Program-made: the position numbers and the translations under genes
In this document: positions 2,041 to 64,000 of the stretch, one piece after another
How the letters are laid out: each line of letters begins with the position of its first letter
Numbering within the stretch: the first letter of the stretch is position 1
Notes under the pieces: generated by a model
What the model saw: the letters and a program-made list of their open reading frames with translations, nothing else
What the model was told of the DNA's origin: nothing
Database searches by the model: none
Assembly: GCF_000317515.1 (NCBI RefSeq)
Contig: NC_019738.1
Coordinates: 6,288,001-6,352,000, forward strand
From: Allocoleopsis franciscana PCC 7113
GTDB taxonomy: Bacteria > Cyanobacteriota > Cyanobacteriia > Cyanobacteriales > Coleofasciculaceae
Reading direction: 5' to 3'
Length of the DNA: 64,000 bases

Positions 2041-2802
2041 ATGGGAAAAGGCAATCTTAATATTCCAATCAATTCAATGAAACAGCTCCTCAATCGACTC
2101 GACGAGAGTCAAAAATACCTTCAACGCCTGATTCTACCCCTGGTATTATGCGTTTTAGCCAGTGTATTCGTGGCAGCACCCGCTAACGCCACTGGAGTTT
2201 ATCAGATGCCCAACATTAGGGCTGGGGAACCGACTTGGGTGGTTGATAAAGCCGAAGTTCTCAGCCGTTTGAATGAAGGACGCTTGAGTAATACTTTGGA
2301 TGATTTAGCGAAGAAAACGGGCAAAGAGGTCAGGATGGTTACCATGCACCGTTTAGACTACGGTGAGACGATCGATAGTTTCACAAAAGCCCTATTTGAA
2401 AAATGGTTCCCAACCCCACAAGCTCAAGCCAAGCAAGCGTTGCTCGTGATTGACACGCTAACCAACACAACTGCTATTCAGACGGGTGAAGCGGTTAAGT
2501 CCGTTCTACCTGACGACATTGCCGAAAGCGTAGCGTCTGAAACGGTAGCGGTGCCCCTCCGAACGGGGAACAAGTACAATCAAGCTTTGTTGGATGCTAG
2601 CGATCGCTTAGTCGCCGTTCTTTCGGGTGAACCCGACCCAGGCCCCCCGGTTGTGGAAGAAAAGATTCAGGTTGAAAGCACCTTTAAGAGTGCAGAAGAA
2701 ACTGACACCCAAAATTCTACGATTTGGGTGGTGACTATCTTGATTATCGCCACCGTTGTCCCGATGGCTACCTACTTTTTCTATCAGAATTTCTCAGGCT
2801 AA
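2041..2802 (+). CDS. TPM-domain protein, Psb32-like
   Basis: The 253-residue product has an N-terminal hydrophobic signal or anchor (about residues 28-50, ending APANATG), a TPM domain (about 60-195, including WVVDKAEVLSRLNEGRLS and KQALLVIDTLTNTTAIQTG), and a C-terminal membrane helix (about 229-249, IWVVTILIIATVVPMATYFF). This layout fits the Psb32/TLP18.3 group, lumenal thylakoid proteins implicated in photosystem II repair. No strong ribosome site is seen; an internal ATG at 2077 (MKQLLNRL) is an alternative start. The last 4 bases overlap the convergent DUF4346 gene. Confidence 0.8.
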   Translation: MGKGNLNIPINSMKQLLNRLDESQKYLQRLILPLVLCVLASVFVAAPANATGVYQMPNIRAGEPTWVVDKAEVLSRLNEGRLSNTLDDLAKKTGKEVRMVTMHRLDYGETIDSFTKALFEKWFPTPQAQAKQALLVIDTLTNTTAIQTGEAVKSVLPDDIAESVASETVAVPLRTGNKYNQALLDASDRLVAVLSGEPDPGPPVVEEKIQVESTFKSAEETDTQNSTIWVVTILIIATVVPMATYFFYQNFSG

Positions 2803-3182
2803 TCCTGAATATACTCTCCGCCATCCACTAGAGCAGACTCAGCCCGAACAAACTCCCGTCCCAAATAAGCTGCATGATCGAGCATTGTGACGGGACAGGG
2901 TTGGGTTTGCTCAAAGATAGCCACACAAAGTTCTTTTGCAGTTCTGCCTGTAAACAGGGTGCTTTGAGTCCGTTCTACTTTGCCCTTGGCGGGGATGACT
3001 TTGCCTGTTTCTGGGTCAATGGCTAAGCCTCGCTCATCAATTACATTAGTGAAATGTTTGGCACAAATTAGCCTTGACTCGCGATCGAGGTAGATAATGA
3101 AATATCCGCCTGGGTCAAGGTTGATATCGCGTTTCGATAGCTTATCGTCAATTGCACGTAGGTCATCTACTGTTAAACTCAT
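2799..3182 (-). CDS. DUF4346 family protein
   Basis: The 127-residue soluble protein carries the features I associate with DUF4346: an LDPGGYFIIYLDRESRLICAKH strand-rich core (split here as LDPGGYFIIYLD and SRLICAKH), a GKVIPAKGK loop and an AAYLGREFVRAE segment near the C-terminus. The family is widespread in cyanobacteria, sometimes fused to dihydropteroate synthase-related domains. The function is unknown and no catalytic motif is evident. It converges on the Psb32-like gene with a 4-bp overlap of the stop ends. Confidence 0.75.
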   Translation of the reverse strand: MSLTVDDLRAIDDKLSKRDINLDPGGYFIIYLDRESRLICAKHFTNVIDERGLAIDPETGKVIPAKGKVERTQSTLFTGRTAKELCVAIFEQTQPCPVTMLDHAAYLGREFVRAESALVDGGEYIQD

Positions 3183-3458: not shown

Positions 3459-6011
3459 CTAAATATTCTCAAATTGTTCAAATAAATTAATTAACCAGTA
3501 ATTGTCTAGATAGTGGATTAAATCTGGCAAAGCCTCTTTTAGATCAAAGTCAACATCTCGCTCTTGAATATCAATAATTAGTTTGTAAATCAACTCAAAG
3601 TTAATTCGGTCTTCCTGTTCCATAATAATGAAACTTCCCTTGGAAGAGTTGTTCAGTTTTTCTATTTCATCCCTACCCACTCTTCCTGTAATTCCGGGTT
3701 GTCTTCGATCTCTAAGGAGTTTAAAAGACGTATCCTCCTTGTGCCTGAGTACTAATTCATTCCAGTTCTGGATTCGGGCTGTAAAAGAACCTCCATTAAT
3801 CTGTAAGAAACCAATAGCAATACTTTGATGTTCATTTCTAATTACAAGGTGTTCCGGTAGCTTCTTCCCACCTAACCGCAAGCTATGTAGTTCAAAATCC
3901 TTAAAATCTTTGAATGCCTGAGCAATAGTCCTCAATTTTCCGACATCATCGCTGTCACTAATAATTTGAGGCTGTGCATATTCTTGTTCAATTAAAGTTT
4001 CTTGTCTTTGAAGATATAGAATAAGAGGACTAGAACCTCCTCCCTTGCCTTCTATTTGTTCCAGCCTTCTATCTAATTCCTCTGTTTTTTGTCCCAATTC
4101 CTCTGTTTTAACGTATAAAAATTGTACATCTTCGACTAAATTACTAACTACTTGCTTCCAATCCGTAAAGTCATTATCTAATTCTTGCAAGGTTTGACAC
4201 AACACATCCATATCTTCCTGCTTTTCTCGGAAACTAGAGCCAGCCTTTTTCTGCAATTTAGCTAATTCATTTTCCAGCAATGTTAATCTTTCTTGAACTG
4301 CTTCACTGACTATTGGTTTTGATGGTGAACTAGAACGTTCGGGCAGAGGAACATTATGAACCTTATACTGATAGTAATCAGAAGCACGATTTAAAACATA
4401 TCGTATAGAGTGTTGATTAAGAATTGCCTCTAATTCATCTGAATTAAATAAATCTTCTATATTTAAACCAATTTCTTGTGCTTTGATTTGTAAAATTTCT
4501 TGTAGTTTTTTACGATTTGGCAGATTTAATCGGACTTGGTACTGTGAAATTCTCCCAAGAATAGAACCATCAAAAATTTCTTTAAACTGTTCCCAACGGT
4601 CTGGAAATAAATTAAGAATAATTAAACTATTGGGGACGTGAGTAAAAATTTCTTTTACTGCCTCACCAAATCTCACTAATAGGCTGTCGTTATGTTTTAG
4701 TCCCAGTCCTTCCAGTTGATCAAAGACAATAATTAGTGGTTCATCTAGTAGAGAGAGTTTGCTAAAAACAGAAATTGCTTGCAAGGAAAATTCTTCCTTA
4801 CTCATCTCCTCCTTCCAGTTATTCAAGCCAATAAAATCGGTTTCTTCTTGTGTTAGTTCATTGGCAGCTAACCATCGGGTTACTATTTCTTTTTTCCTTG
4901 AATCGGAATAACTACAATATTTAACAATACCCTTAATGATTTGAGCTGAGTAACCTGCTACTCCATACTCATTAGCCCACCATTCATTAGTACGTTTTTC
5001 AATGTGCTGCCAATATTCCCGCTTTCGCTGGGTTCCTTCCGCACCTAAAACTTCATATATCTTGAGATTACCCTTTTGAACAGCAGATAGTATTTCTGTA
5101 TCTCTCTTATTTAGACTTATGATCCGGGTTGTGCTAATCAGTTTGACAAAGCTATTAGCTAATAAATGTTCTAACTGTGTATAGTTACTATCAGGAACTT
5201 TTTGAATAAAAGATTCTAGGATTCGGCTGTAAGTATGATAAAGAACGGAATCAGGATTATTAGGTTGTCTGATGAAAAGTAATCGATTAACCTTCAGTAA
5301 CTCTTTAGCCAGACGCATCATCAAGTGCGTTTTTCCAGAACCGGGTTCACCAATGACAATTGCTCCCTTGCTTTGGTGATTTTTATCATGTTTGATATCA
5401 GTGATGACAGACTTGAGTGTTTCAAACTCATCCTGATAGATTTCTTTGAAATCAACATGGTCTTGAAATGGATTATCGACGCGGCTACTTCCAAAAGGGT
5501 TAGGTTTGTCTCGGAGAGTATCTAGTAGAGGGGCTTTTGGTGCCTGAGTCATGATTTTTAGATACAGTTGATAGGTGAATTCTGCGTCATACCTGGCTAT
5601 ATGAGCTAGGTTAACATCGAAGTAGCTTTGGTTGACTTTTAAATTTAAGTGCTTACTTAGATATTCTAAAGAATAACTGGGTAAACCTGGGAAGGCAGCT
5701 TTCGCTAGAACACAGCTACATTCAATGGTAAGATTTTGCCAAGGCAAGCCAACTTTCTTACAGCTATTTTTCAAAACTTGAATATCATGCTTAGCATAAT
5801 GAAAAACTATTAACTTCGTTTTAGTAATTTCTAGAAAATCAACGACAATCTCTTTAAGGGGCTTGAGGTTAAGGACTTTTTCATAATTATCAGGATGCTC
5901 TTTAGCAAAAGCTTCGTAAATTAATTTACCCTTACTGTTGATAATCGCAATTTCCCGAAGCTCTTTTTTCCCTTCGGTATCGATAACAATGAAGTCCTGT
6001 TGTGGATGCAT
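3459..6011 (-). CDS. DEDDh exonuclease-AAA-type ATPase fusion protein
   Basis: The 850-residue product joins three parts. Residues 1-165 form a DnaQ-like 3'-5' exonuclease with all acidic positions: D11/E13 (VIDTEG), D76 (HYAKHD) and H137-x4-D142 (HIARYD), i.e. the DEDDh type. Residues 215-550 form a P-loop ATPase with Walker A GEPGSGKT (221-228) and Walker B LIIVFDQLEG (D431). Residues 570-655 are coiled coil, followed by an unrecognised C-terminal domain to 850 (LRLGGKKLPEHLVIRN, QPGITGRVGRDEIEKL, EDRINFELIYKLI). The gene is monocistronic and clearly more AT-rich than its neighbours, suggesting transfer. Nucleic-acid processing or phage defence is plausible; no named family is assigned. Confidence 0.85.
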   Translation of the reverse strand: MHPQQDFIVIDTEGKKELREIAIINSKGKLIYEAFAKEHPDNYEKVLNLKPLKEIVVDFLEITKTKLIVFHYAKHDIQVLKNSCKKVGLPWQNLTIECSCVLAKAAFPGLPSYSLEYLSKHLNLKVNQSYFDVNLAHIARYDAEFTYQLYLKIMTQAPKAPLLDTLRDKPNPFGSSRVDNPFQDHVDFKEIYQDEFETLKSVITDIKHDKNHQSKGAIVIGEPGSGKTHLMMRLAKELLKVNRLLFIRQPNNPDSVLYHTYSRILESFIQKVPDSNYTQLEHLLANSFVKLISTTRIISLNKRDTEILSAVQKGNLKIYEVLGAEGTQRKREYWQHIEKRTNEWWANEYGVAGYSAQIIKGIVKYCSYSDSRKKEIVTRWLAANELTQEETDFIGLNNWKEEMSKEEFSLQAISVFSKLSLLDEPLIIVFDQLEGLGLKHNDSLLVRFGEAVKEIFTHVPNSLIILNLFPDRWEQFKEIFDGSILGRISQYQVRLNLPNRKKLQEILQIKAQEIGLNIEDLFNSDELEAILNQHSIRYVLNRASDYYQYKVHNVPLPERSSSPSKPIVSEAVQERLTLLENELAKLQKKAGSSFREKQEDMDVLCQTLQELDNDFTDWKQVVSNLVEDVQFLYVKTEELGQKTEELDRRLEQIEGKGGGSSPLILYLQRQETLIEQEYAQPQIISDSDDVGKLRTIAQAFKDFKDFELHSLRLGGKKLPEHLVIRNEHQSIAIGFLQINGGSFTARIQNWNELVLRHKEDTSFKLLRDRRQPGITGRVGRDEIEKLNNSSKGSFIIMEQEDRINFELIYKLIIDIQERDVDFDLKEALPDLIHYLDNYWLINLFEQFENI

Positions 6012-6233: not shown

Positions 6234-7430
6234 TTAATCCTGAATGGTGAGGTTAATCTCCCGTTTGGTAAAGGGTAAATCCTGATTAATCGCGTCGATT
6301 TCCTCTTGTTCCATGACATTAATCTCACCGATGTAGTGCCGCAAAATTTGAGTAAACCGCGCATTATAAAATCGGTGCAGACTGTGGTTAGCTGTTGCCG
6401 GAAAACCGCGCCGTCTTTTGTGACGCCCACCCGCACCGGGGTCAAACATCTGAATGCCATTGGCAATTCCCCACTCAATCGGCGTGTAGTAACAAGCGTC
6501 GAAATGCAGGCAATCAAATTCCTCAAAACAACCCCAATAGCGACCATAAAGCTGGTCACCCTTGTTGATACAAAATGACATGCCTACCGGATGGCGGTTA
6601 TTGTCCTCTCGATAAGCTGCCACTAACAACACGCGATCGCTATAGTTGGGATATAACTGCTCAAAAAACTTGCGCGTGAGATACTTACTCCCCCACATAA
6701 ACTTGTCGCAGGTGCTGCTGTAGAAGCCATAAATTGAAGGAAACAGGGATTTAGGAATCTCTTCACCCCTGAGAATATCTAAGCGTAGACCTGTTGTTGT
6801 AACAGCTTTGCGCTCCCGTTTGATATTGCGGCGCTGATTAGCGTTGAAGACACTAAGATAATCATCAAAGGTCTGAAAGCCTTTGTTTTGCCAAATGTAG
6901 CTGTGGTGCAGCCAACTGGTAAAACCATGACGTTCTAGGACGGGACGCCATTCGGGGTCAACAAACAAAAAGTGACAGCCACTAATCCGGTTCTGGTCAC
7001 AAAAATGGTCGATCGCAATTACCATTTGTTCCGTCAGCCGGTCTTCATCTTCTCCCGGTGCGATCAAAAACCGATAACCGGTAGCTGGGGTAAACGGCGT
7101 CATTCCCAGCAGTTTGGGGTAGTAGCGTATCCCTAAGCGGTGAGATAAATCCGCCCACTGCTGGTCAAAAACAAACTCTCCGTAACTGTGGCCTTTGATG
7201 TAGAAAGGTGCAGCGGCTATAAGCTGTCTATCTCGCCACACGGTGAGGTGATTCGGTAACCACCCAGTTTTTGCTGTAGCACTCCCTGAGGTTTCTAGAT
7301 TGTTCAACCACTCCCACTCTAGGAAAGGGGTCTTCAAGGGCTGGGCAAGCTCATCCCAAGCGGATTGGGGAATGTCTGCCATCCGGTTGACCCAAGTCAC
7401 GGCATAGTCAAGCTGGGGTTGTTGAACCAT
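6234..7430 (-). CDS. GNAT-fold acetyltransferase-like protein (COG3146/DUF482 type)
   Basis: About 398 residues from the ATG at 7430 (MVQQPQLDYAVTWVNRMADIP). The N-terminal half has the motif run typical of this family (SAWDELAQPLKTPFLEWEWL, PFYIKGHSYGEFVFDQQWAD); the C-terminal half is a GNAT-like fold with FQTFDDYLSVFNANQRRNIKRE and FDPGAGGRHKRRRGF. Members are annotated as peptidoglycan-related or N-acyl transferases by similarity to Fem-type enzymes; the substrate is unknown. The frame is open upstream to a TTG at 7526, but those residues are unlike the family. No clear ribosome site is seen. Confidence 0.8.
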   Translation of the reverse strand: MVQQPQLDYAVTWVNRMADIPQSAWDELAQPLKTPFLEWEWLNNLETSGSATAKTGWLPNHLTVWRDRQLIAAAPFYIKGHSYGEFVFDQQWADLSHRLGIRYYPKLLGMTPFTPATGYRFLIAPGEDEDRLTEQMVIAIDHFCDQNRISGCHFLFVDPEWRPVLERHGFTSWLHHSYIWQNKGFQTFDDYLSVFNANQRRNIKRERKAVTTTGLRLDILRGEEIPKSLFPSIYGFYSSTCDKFMWGSKYLTRKFFEQLYPNYSDRVLLVAAYREDNNRHPVGMSFCINKGDQLYGRYWGCFEEFDCLHFDACYYTPIEWGIANGIQMFDPGAGGRHKRRRGFPATANHSLHRFYNARFTQILRHYIGEINVMEQEEIDAINQDLPFTKREINLTIQD

Positions 7431-7582
7431 GGGGGAAATCCAAGAAAGAAATGGGTTAAGATACCGTGTCATGCAGAATATAAGGGTGAGTTCAATTGGC
7501 TCCACCCAGAGGTTTGTTCGGAGCAATGCAGCTCAAAGTGAGTGCCGACTCCGATAAAAACTGTTTTTAGGTTAACTAATCT

Positions 7583-62195: not shown

Positions 62196-63575
62196 ATGCA
62201 TATCAATAAATTACATATTCAAAACTTTAGATGTTTGAAAAGAATTGATTTTAATTTTACACCTGATAATATAGTTGTAATAATTGGTATTAATGGAGCA
62301 GGTAAATCATCAGTATTAGATTGTATAGCTAGCCTTTTAATTCAACTCGAAACACGAATAATTAAAATTGAACCATTTGAATATTCTGAAATTGACAGTA
62401 TCAATATTAATCAAAAAATAAATAGTTTTTTGACAGTAGATGATATTAATGACAACGCTAAACAAGTTGATGTGTCTATTGAAATCTCAACCGATTTTAA
62501 TGACAGTATATCTTGGAAGGTCACAAGAAGTTTAATTGAGAAAGGCCTTGAAGGAGATTACAATCAATTAAATCATTATATTGAGTATCTGCGTCGAAAA
62601 TTAGAGTCAAATTCAAACTTTAATTTGCCTTTAATGATATATTATAGGACTCGTAGAATAACATTAGATTCTAAATCTAGAATAATATTAGATACTAAAT
62701 CTATTGATTTGGATAATTTAGATAGTAAAGTTTACCCATTCAAAATTAATCAATTGAGTGCTTACAGTGGAAGTTTCAATCCAGAAGTAAATAATTTTCA
62801 AAGGTTTTTTACTTGGTTCAGACAAGAGGAAGATTACGAAAATGAAATTCGGTTAAGAGAAGATGATAAGTATAGAAATCCAAATTTAGAGGTTATAAGA
62901 AAAGCTTTAGAAAGATTTCTAGAGGGATTTCCAAGCAGCCATTTTTCTAATCTGCGGGTAGTCAGGTCAACATCCCAGAGAAACCTGAATTTTAATCATA
63001 GTAGGATTCCCTCTTTTTTAACAATTACTAAGAATAATCAGGACTTTAAGTTAGAGCAACTCTCTGAAGGAGAAAAGATGCTTTTAATGTTGGTTACTGA
63101 CTTGGCAAGGCGTTTGTCAATTGCTAACCCAGGTTTGGGAGTTGAGGCTTTACATGGTAAAGGCATAGTTTTGATTGATGAAATAGATCTACATTTACAT
63201 CCTCAGTGGCAAAGAATGGTGATTCCTAGCCTGACGCAAACCTTTCCTAATTGTCAGTTTATAGTTACTACTCACTCTCCTCAAGTTTTGAGCAATGTTA
63301 AAAGAGAAAATGTCTTTATTTTAGAAGATTATAAACTAGTAGAGGTAACGCCTTATACTTACGGCAGAGATAGCAATTCAATTTTATATGAATTAATGGA
63401 TGTGAGCGCACGACCAAAGGAAGTTCAGGATAAAATTAATGCTTGTTTTGATTTGATAAATGAAGAAAAATTAGAAGAAGCAAAAAGTAAACTGCAAGAA
63501 CTAGCAGATTTACTGGGTGAATACGATTCCGAAATCGTTAGGGCTAAAACACTAATTAATTTTTTAACCGAGTAA
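62196..63575 (+). CDS. ptuA: Septu PtuA-like ATPase
   Basis: The 459-residue product is an SMC/ABC-like ATPase of the AAA_21/AAA_15 group: LHIQNFRCLKRIDFNF at the start, Walker A GINGAGKSS (about 32-40), a helical/charged insert (about 85-270), the signature-like LEQLSEGEKMLLML, Walker B GIVLIDEIDLHLHPQW and the His switch VTTHSPQVLSN. Directly after it (1 base gap) starts a gene for a TIGR02646-type HNH nuclease. This ATPase + HNH pair is the Septu anti-phage system. Both genes are AT-rich against their surroundings, which fits transfer. No reverse transcriptase is upstream, so a retron is not supported. Confidence 0.88.
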   Translation: MHINKLHIQNFRCLKRIDFNFTPDNIVVIIGINGAGKSSVLDCIASLLIQLETRIIKIEPFEYSEIDSININQKINSFLTVDDINDNAKQVDVSIEISTDFNDSISWKVTRSLIEKGLEGDYNQLNHYIEYLRRKLESNSNFNLPLMIYYRTRRITLDSKSRIILDTKSIDLDNLDSKVYPFKINQLSAYSGSFNPEVNNFQRFFTWFRQEEDYENEIRLREDDKYRNPNLEVIRKALERFLEGFPSSHFSNLRVVRSTSQRNLNFNHSRIPSFLTITKNNQDFKLEQLSEGEKMLLMLVTDLARRLSIANPGLGVEALHGKGIVLIDEIDLHLHPQWQRMVIPSLTQTFPNCQFIVTTHSPQVLSNVKRENVFILEDYKLVEVTPYTYGRDSNSILYELMDVSARPKEVQDKINACFDLINEEKLEEAKSKLQELADLLGEYDSEIVRAKTLINFLTE

Positions 63576-63576
63576 A

Positions 63577-64000
63577 GTGAAGCATATTGTCAAAGGTAAG
63601 GAACCTCAATCATTACTGGAACATCGCTTAAAATCTCATGCCGATTACAACAACTATTCTGAAAAAGATGATCTGCGACAATCATTGCTGACTGAGCAGG
63701 GATACATTTGTTGCTATTGTATGGAGCGCATTGCCAAAAACAAGATGAAAATTGAGCATTGGCGATCCCAAAGTATTTATCATAATTTACAATTAGATTA
63801 CCAAAATCTGCTTGGTGCTTGCCAAGGCAATCAAGGCCAACCTCAACATTTACAACATTGTGATACAAGAAAGGGTGAAATCGAAATTACGATTAATCCT
63901 ACTGACGCTAGTAGAAGATGTGAGAATTTAATCAAATATCGCGGCAATGGTCAAATCTACTCGGATGATGTAACTATTAATCGCGAATTAAACGAAGTTT
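63577..64000 (+). CDS. ptuB: Septu PtuB-like HNH endonuclease (partial, runs off the window)
   Basis: A GTG at 63577, one base after the ptuA stop, opens a frame without stop to the end of the window (141 codons): MKHIVKGKEPQSLLEHRLKS, then YICCYCMERIAKNKMKIEHW, QLDYQNLLGACQGN and HCDTRKGEIEI. The CxYC...EHW...Cys/Lys-Gly pattern is the HNH nuclease of the TIGR02646 family, with His of EHW as likely base and cysteines for zinc. In Septu, PtuA and PtuB form a complex that cuts nucleic acid when phage infects. The C-terminus is not visible. Confidence 0.88.
   Translation, partial: MKHIVKGKEPQSLLEHRLKSHADYNNYSEKDDLRQSLLTEQGYICCYCMERIAKNKMKIEHWRSQSIYHNLQLDYQNLLGACQGNQGQPQHLQHCDTRKGEIEITINPTDASRRCENLIKYRGNGQIYSDDVTINRELNEV

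Follow-up and report, generated by a model that had tools for sequence, protein, structure and literature searches.

A solitary cyanobacterial gene predicted to fuse a DEDDh exonuclease with an Orc/Cdc6-type ATPase, a candidate one-protein defence system

ATPases of the Orc/Cdc6 type recur in BREX, Ssp and predicted capture systems, where their role is unsettled and where each stands within a multi-subunit complex. In the predicted HerA/FtsK capture operons, an Orc/CDC6 ATPase is followed by an inactive restriction endonuclease (REase), HerA/FtsK, an active REase and a wHTH, a 3'-5' exonuclease is sometimes fused to FtsK, and the operons were proposed as counter-invader systems (PMC10853773). 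The DNA binding of BrxC, a BREX protein, depends on ATP, and the HEPN-fused DUF499 ATPases of BREX-related systems carry an N-terminal nuclease on an Orc/Cdc6-clade ATPase (PMC12839542, PMC13326643).

A gene with comparable parts in one chain was analyzed in Allocoleopsis franciscana PCC 7113 (genome of 7.97 Mb). The window, which is the whole stretch of 64,000 nucleotides analyzed here (NC_019738.1, positions 6,288,001 to 6,352,000), contains an 850-aa ORF that occupies exactly 3459..6011 on the minus strand and encodes a predicted DEDDh exonuclease, an Orc/Cdc6-type AAA+ ATPase and a probable REase-like domain whose catalytic motif is lost. The gene was described in the original prediction as solitary and AT-rich between ordinary genes, which was confirmed: its GC content was 35.8% (GC3 29%) against 45.6% for the window, the second lowest among 29 genes compared, and the genes around it encode PsaL, TPM, DUF4346, FemAB-like, RibD_C and histidine kinase proteins, with no BREX locus (PglZ, BrxC and modification genes) at this position. 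When the protein was scanned against Pfam, PADLOC and NCBIfam, none of them named the exonuclease-ATPase fusion. No description of a DEDDh exonuclease-Orc ATPase fusion was found in the main texts of the open-access papers searched, whose supplementary listings could still contain one; neither DEDD nor cyanobacteria occurred in the main text of PMC10853773, and neither "exonuclease" nor "DEDD" in that of the BREX survey. The list of hosts also led to a study of giant-bacterial genes, which proved to concern an actin-like protein and not this gene.

Modules of the predicted protein

The structure of the whole protein was modelled by AlphaFold from 34 homologues (mean pLDDT 82.5), and the conservation of residues was counted over 74 long homologues, 64 of them with the exonuclease. 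The model was composed of an exonuclease (residues 6-159), an ATPase with helical lid (166-555), a linker (556-660) and a compact C-terminal domain (661-850), all of which are located below by their coordinates on the minus strand.

The N-terminal domain (5535..5996) matched Pfam RNase_T over residues 17-150 (E 5.5e-7, 30.7 bits against a gathering score of 24), and comparison of the modelled structure matched it to the DnaQ domain 8h18 (Z 17.6, rmsd 2.6, 149 residues), with RNase T (Z about 16), Cap18 (7t2s, Z 15.4) and Cas2-DEDDh as further structural matches. The NCBIfam matches of the protein were of PolC/DnaQ type, a profile comparison gave PolC with E 9e-9, and PADLOC returned only its generic DEDDh model (E 9e-12) and two weak matches. 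The D-x-E, D and H-x4-D set of the DEDDh superfamily was found within an RNase H-like fold, formed by the metal ligands D11 (5979..5981), E13 (5973..5975), D76 (5784..5786) and D142 (5586..5588) and the general base H137 (5601..5603). These five residues had been listed in the original prediction, and each was present in 64/64 exonuclease-bearing homologues; all were likewise invariant in an alignment of seven relatives. Based on sequence and model, the domain belongs to the DnaQ/RNase T superfamily and is a predicted 3'-5' exonuclease.

The exonuclease module is detachable, because split and exonuclease-less forms occur. In Thiomargarita (L071) the exonuclease and the ATPase were encoded by two overlapping ORFs, and seven Okeania copies (L063, L064, L067-L070, L073) and one Campylobacteraceae copy (L060) kept the ATPase and C-terminal domain without the exonuclease. 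No separate exonuclease gene was found by tblastn beside the exonuclease-less Okeania copies, nor was a nearby exonuclease found for L060. The ATPase part should therefore be useful by itself.

The ATPase (4347..5516) combined an AAA+ core, a helical lid and both Walker motifs within residues 166-555, as in Orc1/Cdc6-type proteins. The Walker A motif GEPGSGKT (residues 221-228, 5328..5351) and the Walker B motif LIIVFDQLE (residues 426-434, 4710..4736) bore out the full Walker pair claimed for the 850-residue protein, as K227 and D431, together with Q432 and E434, were found in 74/74 homologues. R487, directly before the last core strand, was conserved in 72/74, and R537 in the lid in 74/74. 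The conservation of the DEDDh set and the Walker residues across homologues is, as judged from the alignments, far beyond chance. The matches of the protein to Pfam AAA families were all sub-threshold, and the fold was assigned from structure: Cdc6/Orc1 (2qby, Z 14.8; 1fnn, Z 14.7) and TnsC (7ufi, Z 14.3) were the matches, with Z of 14-15 over about 245 residues for 2qby, 1fnn, 1w5t and TnsC, and BrxC (9zll, E 3.4e-4) was among the Foldseek matches. The modelled domain is thus predicted to be of the Orc/Cdc6-BrxC-TnsC kind. The canonical C-terminal winged helix of Orc/Cdc6 ATPases was absent from the secondary structure of either model. The exonuclease had originally been proposed to be tied to a STAND/AAA-like switch, of which the AAA-type ATPase was retained and the STAND part was not: Pfam nSTAND matches were below cutoff, the structure favoured Orc/Cdc6, and no repeat sensor (TPR, WD40 or LRR) followed the NTPase in the models, where the REase-like domain was found instead. 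In the Walker B sequence FDQLE, Gln stands at the usual place of the catalytic Glu in 74/74 homologues, and a Glu lies three residues past the Asp. From this substitution, ATP hydrolysis may be weak, which would suit a slow switch.

The ATPase is followed by a variable helical linker (4032..4346) of low confidence, with pLDDT mostly under 50 from residue 589 on and 27% identity between two congeneric copies. The C-terminal domain (3462..4031), which had been reported as unrecognised, no longer appeared so. Its sequence had no match in Pfam and gave nothing useful in a search of the PDB; modelled alone, it reached pLDDT 94.4, and its structural matches were mostly of REase fold (VC1899, XisH, BstEII, BspD6I, Can2, EndoMS, EcoT38I, Cap4 and FokI), though of modest strength, with Z at most 7.0 and a Foldseek E of 4e-3 at best. 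A restriction-endonuclease-like fold is therefore probable on the model, and this outcome did not refute the original prediction, for which a C-terminal match to a known replication or repair factor had been named as the opposing result. The catalytic PD...(D/E)xK residues were not found in this domain. The strand expected to bear (D/E)xK reads FLx (F735 in 72/74, L736 in 70/74), and the domain should therefore not cut; from its sequence it is apparently catalytically dead.

Related ATPases and their operons

Weak matches in many relatives were traced to ATPases of about 610-700 aa without exonuclease, which were collected in alignment A4. By profile-profile comparison, the ATPase and C-terminus of the gene matched A4 with E 3e-32 over 545 columns, and the C-terminal domain alone matched over 92 columns with a probability of 14% and E 0.002. 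Because the C-terminal domain alone matched far more weakly, most of the strength of the full match must lie in the ATPase. The Pfam BrxC_BrxD cutoff was passed by one A4 member, whose plasmid matches carry the annotation BREX ATP-binding protein; no BrxC_BrxD match was listed for the window protein. That A4 ATPases are near-universal in cyanobacteria was considered and rejected by a wider search, in which they were detected in 35/146 genomes.

In 19/20 cyanobacterial loci read, the A4 ATPase was adjoined by a small gene, c1 or c5. The c1 gene (about 280 aa) stood next to the ATPase in 12/20 loci, and in 8 of these 12 a protein of about 840-910 aa (670 aa in one) came next. Two of these larger proteins were scanned and were composed of DNA_pol_A_exo1 (DEDDy), PDDEXK_1 and FtsK_SpoIIIE, a combination that is SspH-like in PADLOC; the order c1, Orc/BrxC-like ATPase and DEDDy exonuclease-PDDEXK_1-FtsK protein was observed in L224, L225, L228-L231, L233 and L234. 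In another 7/20 loci (L236, L238-L243), c5 (about 220 aa) was followed by the Orc-like ATPase and a DUF1802 protein with an REase-like GLD...ECKA motif, which matched Mrr_cat weakly (E 0.004), and a nuclease-linked context is possible for DUF1802. A nuclease-type protein was thus beside the A4 ATPase in 15/20 loci, and the c1-type operon fits the class of predicted HerA/FtsK capture systems (PMC10853773). The Allocoleopsis genome also has an A4-type Orc-like ATPase of its own (G000:C1:320546-322474), which contains one in-frame TAG and is apparently decaying.

Distribution, insertion sites and neighbourhoods

The exonuclease-ATPase gene was detected in 32/386 cyanobacterial genomes and 22/143 genera, and was thus absent from about 92% of the genomes. 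Outside cyanobacteria, it was found in Thioploca, Thiomargarita, Halobeggiatoa, Desulfobulbaceae including Electrothrix, and Campylobacterota, several of these hosts being metagenome bins in which stray contigs are possible. At least seven cyanobacterial plasmids carried the gene, most copies were on non-plasmid contigs, and neither the phage collection nor prophage or IMG/VR sequences gave a match. The tree contained vertical clades (Planktothrix, Okeania and several families), and in it one copy from Thiomargarita clustered with those of Desulfobulbaceae at a support of 100.

In the window, the gene lies between a DUF4346 gene (2799..3182, minus strand) and a FemAB-like gene (6234..7472, minus strand), two conserved flanks that adjoin each other in relatives without the gene. 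The empty FemAB-DUF4346 junction was found in four relatives with about 50-340 bp between the flanks, and a decayed copy was located at the DUF4346 side of the junction in one relative. In relative G011, the junction (L197:1940-3566) held two other ORFs between FemAB and DUF4346, one cupredoxin-like and one unrelated and of 218 aa, and it may therefore be a repeated insertion spot. A housekeeping role was rejected by the sparse distribution and the empty sites in relatives; universal, vertical inheritance had been named as grounds for giving up the original prediction, and the gene does not follow such a pattern.

Two congeneric genomes that kept the gene were compared. The flanking proteins were 91-98% identical with dS of 0.15-0.29, whereas the gene was 64.5% identical with dS of about 1.0, about 4 times that of the flanks (dS was calculated by the simple Nei-Gojobori method, and values near 1 are rough). 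The gene was far more diverged than its flanks, and the two congeneric copies were therefore not inherited together with them. Judged from these divergences, allele replacement or separate arrival would be their history.

The chromosomal copies were usually solitary among ordinary genes. Enrichment of homologues in defence islands, proposed as a check of the original prediction, was not observed: 68 PADLOC models were matched by 95 chromosomal neighbours and 86 by 95 random genes of related genomes, and the enrichment was rejected after this comparison with random stretches. No constant partner gene was found across the loci, and hence no replication, partition or transposase gene in such a position. 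In several Nostoc loci, which form one close clade, a GmrSD gene lay about 33-36 bp past the gene.

Anti-phage genes were found beside plasmid copies, as raw adjacencies that may reflect the plasmid background of defence genes. A copy adjoined DISARM drmABC on L086, ThsB/ThsA-like TIR and macro genes were directly downstream on L090, a type IIG enzyme was downstream on its sister plasmid L091, HerA-NurA adjoined the copy in L088 only, and GmrSD-type genes were beside the plasmid copies L087 and L089 and also on the contigs L036, L039 and L059. On L092, a NucS-like gene and methyltransferases stood beside a truncated copy. The Synechococcus elongatus plasmids carried the gene 128 bp from parA. 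Two related plasmids of this species (L090:19992-23958 and L091:13992-19232) had closely related copies and different genes right after them, which were TIR and macro genes (Thoeris-like) in the former and a type IIG restriction-methylase in the latter. Elsewhere in the window, at 62196-64000 on the plus strand and on into L244:197-2228, an AT-rich gene pair was observed whose first gene had a GC content of 31%. It encodes an OLD/ABC-type ATPase (459 aa, Pfam AAA_21/AAA_15) and, 1 bp on, a protein of 216 aa whose CxxC...H motif is HNH-like. The pair resembles PtuA-PtuB of Septu, truncated where the window ends.

Proposed function and comparison with described systems

The explanation that we favour, with somewhat better than even confidence, is that the gene is a solitary mobile anti-invader gene, in which ATP-dependent target binding by the ATPase and the dead REase domain would bring the exonuclease to 3' ends. 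It starts from the three modules, the two conserved active sites, the homology of the ATPase to nuclease-coupled operonic ATPases, the gain and loss of the gene at one site and its plasmid adjacencies, all of which were observed. The Orc/Cdc6-type AAA+ domain would bind and oligomerise, in an ATP-dependent way, on DNA that is invading, in active replication or being transferred, as BrxC does, and the degenerate REase-like domain would be the part that binds nucleic acid or the target. Loading of the ATPase onto DNA, presumably upon a trigger, would position or activate the exonuclease tethered at the N-terminus, whose substrate would be DNA rather than RNA and which would then degrade the 3' ends of the invader, phage and/or plasmid. 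As a single chain, the protein would thus correspond to the Orc/CDC6-inactive REase ATPases, which in operons act beside separate nucleases, and its role would be one of defence.

The signs counted for defence were the domains with their invariant active sites, the A4 match, the nuclease-coupled A4 loci, the patchiness, the insertion polymorphism, the dS values and the plasmid neighbours; those counted against it were the lack of chromosomal PADLOC enrichment, the lack of prophage and IMG/VR matches, the exonuclease-less copies, the Walker B Gln and the modest C-terminal match. The original prediction of single-gene defence therefore stood in part: the patchy occurrence of the gene, the empty sites, the plasmid copies next to anti-phage systems and the ATPase homology agreed with it, and the expected chromosomal defence islands did not.

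Three other explanations were weighed. An abortive-infection exoribonuclease, in which the ATPase serves as a switch while the DEDDh domain trims the 3' ends of tRNA or other RNA on infection, like RNase T, and halts the host, seems unlikely. Both RNA and DNA are substrates of DEDDh enzymes, the RNase T structures were good matches and the Gln at the catalytic Glu place fits a switch rather than a motor; however, PolC/epsilon-type DNA exonucleases matched at least as well in structure (8h18) and gave the better profile match (PolC), and the related ATPases have DNA nucleases and FtsK as partners. Quite unlikely, in our judgement, is a function for the plasmid or mobile element rather than for host defence, such as competition between plasmids or maintenance, transfer or replication of the carrier. 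The plasmid-borne copies, the proximity to parA in S. elongatus and the service of Orc/Cdc6-clade ATPases in replication and transposition (TnsC match) speak for it, but most copies are non-plasmid and solitary, without a constant replication, partition or transposase partner, phages and viral contigs gave no match, and the plasmid copies differ in backbone and neighbours.

A host enzyme of DNA repair or replication restart is very improbable. A DnaQ-like exonuclease and a Cdc6/Orc1-like loader do resemble parts of repair and replication, and the neighbour genes are ordinary; yet the absence of the gene from most sampled cyanobacterial genomes, the empty sites in close relatives, the atypical GC, an allele divergence far above that of the flanks and the decayed copies argue against it. 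If the anti-invader explanation is true, the gene would add a family to the defences of cyanobacteria and sediment bacteria, and with a single purified chain one could study both how DNA is loaded with ATP and how the nuclease is controlled. The interest of the fusion is that it is compact and testable, rather than a proven mechanism.

S. aureus DinG likewise joins a DEDDh exonuclease, at its N-terminus, to a P-loop NTPase, but DinG is an SF2 helicase, whereas the ATPase here belongs to the Orc/Cdc6-type AAA+ proteins and the C-terminus differs. Cap18 of CBASS and the CRISPR-associated DEDDh proteins are also DEDDh exonucleases in defence settings and, for Cap18, close in structure; each is a small protein on its own within a CBASS or CRISPR locus, and no such locus was found around the window gene. 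BrxC/BrxD of BREX have the Orc/Cdc6-clade AAA+ in common with it, and an A4 member falls under Pfam BrxC_BrxD, but the window protein is smaller than BrxC and has no PglZ, BrxB or PglX. The DUF499 proteins carry an N-terminal nuclease on such an ATPase, which is HEPN there and an exonuclease here. The HerA/FtsK capture operons (PMC10853773) have an Orc/Cdc6-clade AAA+ followed by an REase-fold domain without catalytic motif, as in the window protein, where the REase fold is moderately supported, and the homologous A4 ATPases were found in operons with FtsK, 3'-5' exonuclease and REases. Different from these operons, the window protein has its DEDDh exonuclease in cis, is solitary and is without FtsK, active REase and C-terminal wHTH; a linked HerA/FtsK translocase with active REase was found neither near the gene in the window nor as a constant partner elsewhere. 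Taken together, we give an even chance to the view that this is an undescribed one-protein defence system of Orc/Cdc6 ATPase, dead REase domain and its own, detachable DEDDh exonuclease. In this view it would be a compact counterpart of the HerA/FtsK capture operons, and plasmids would have had a part in its spread among cyanobacteria and the giant sulfur bacteria, cable bacteria and campylobacteria that live in mats or sediments.
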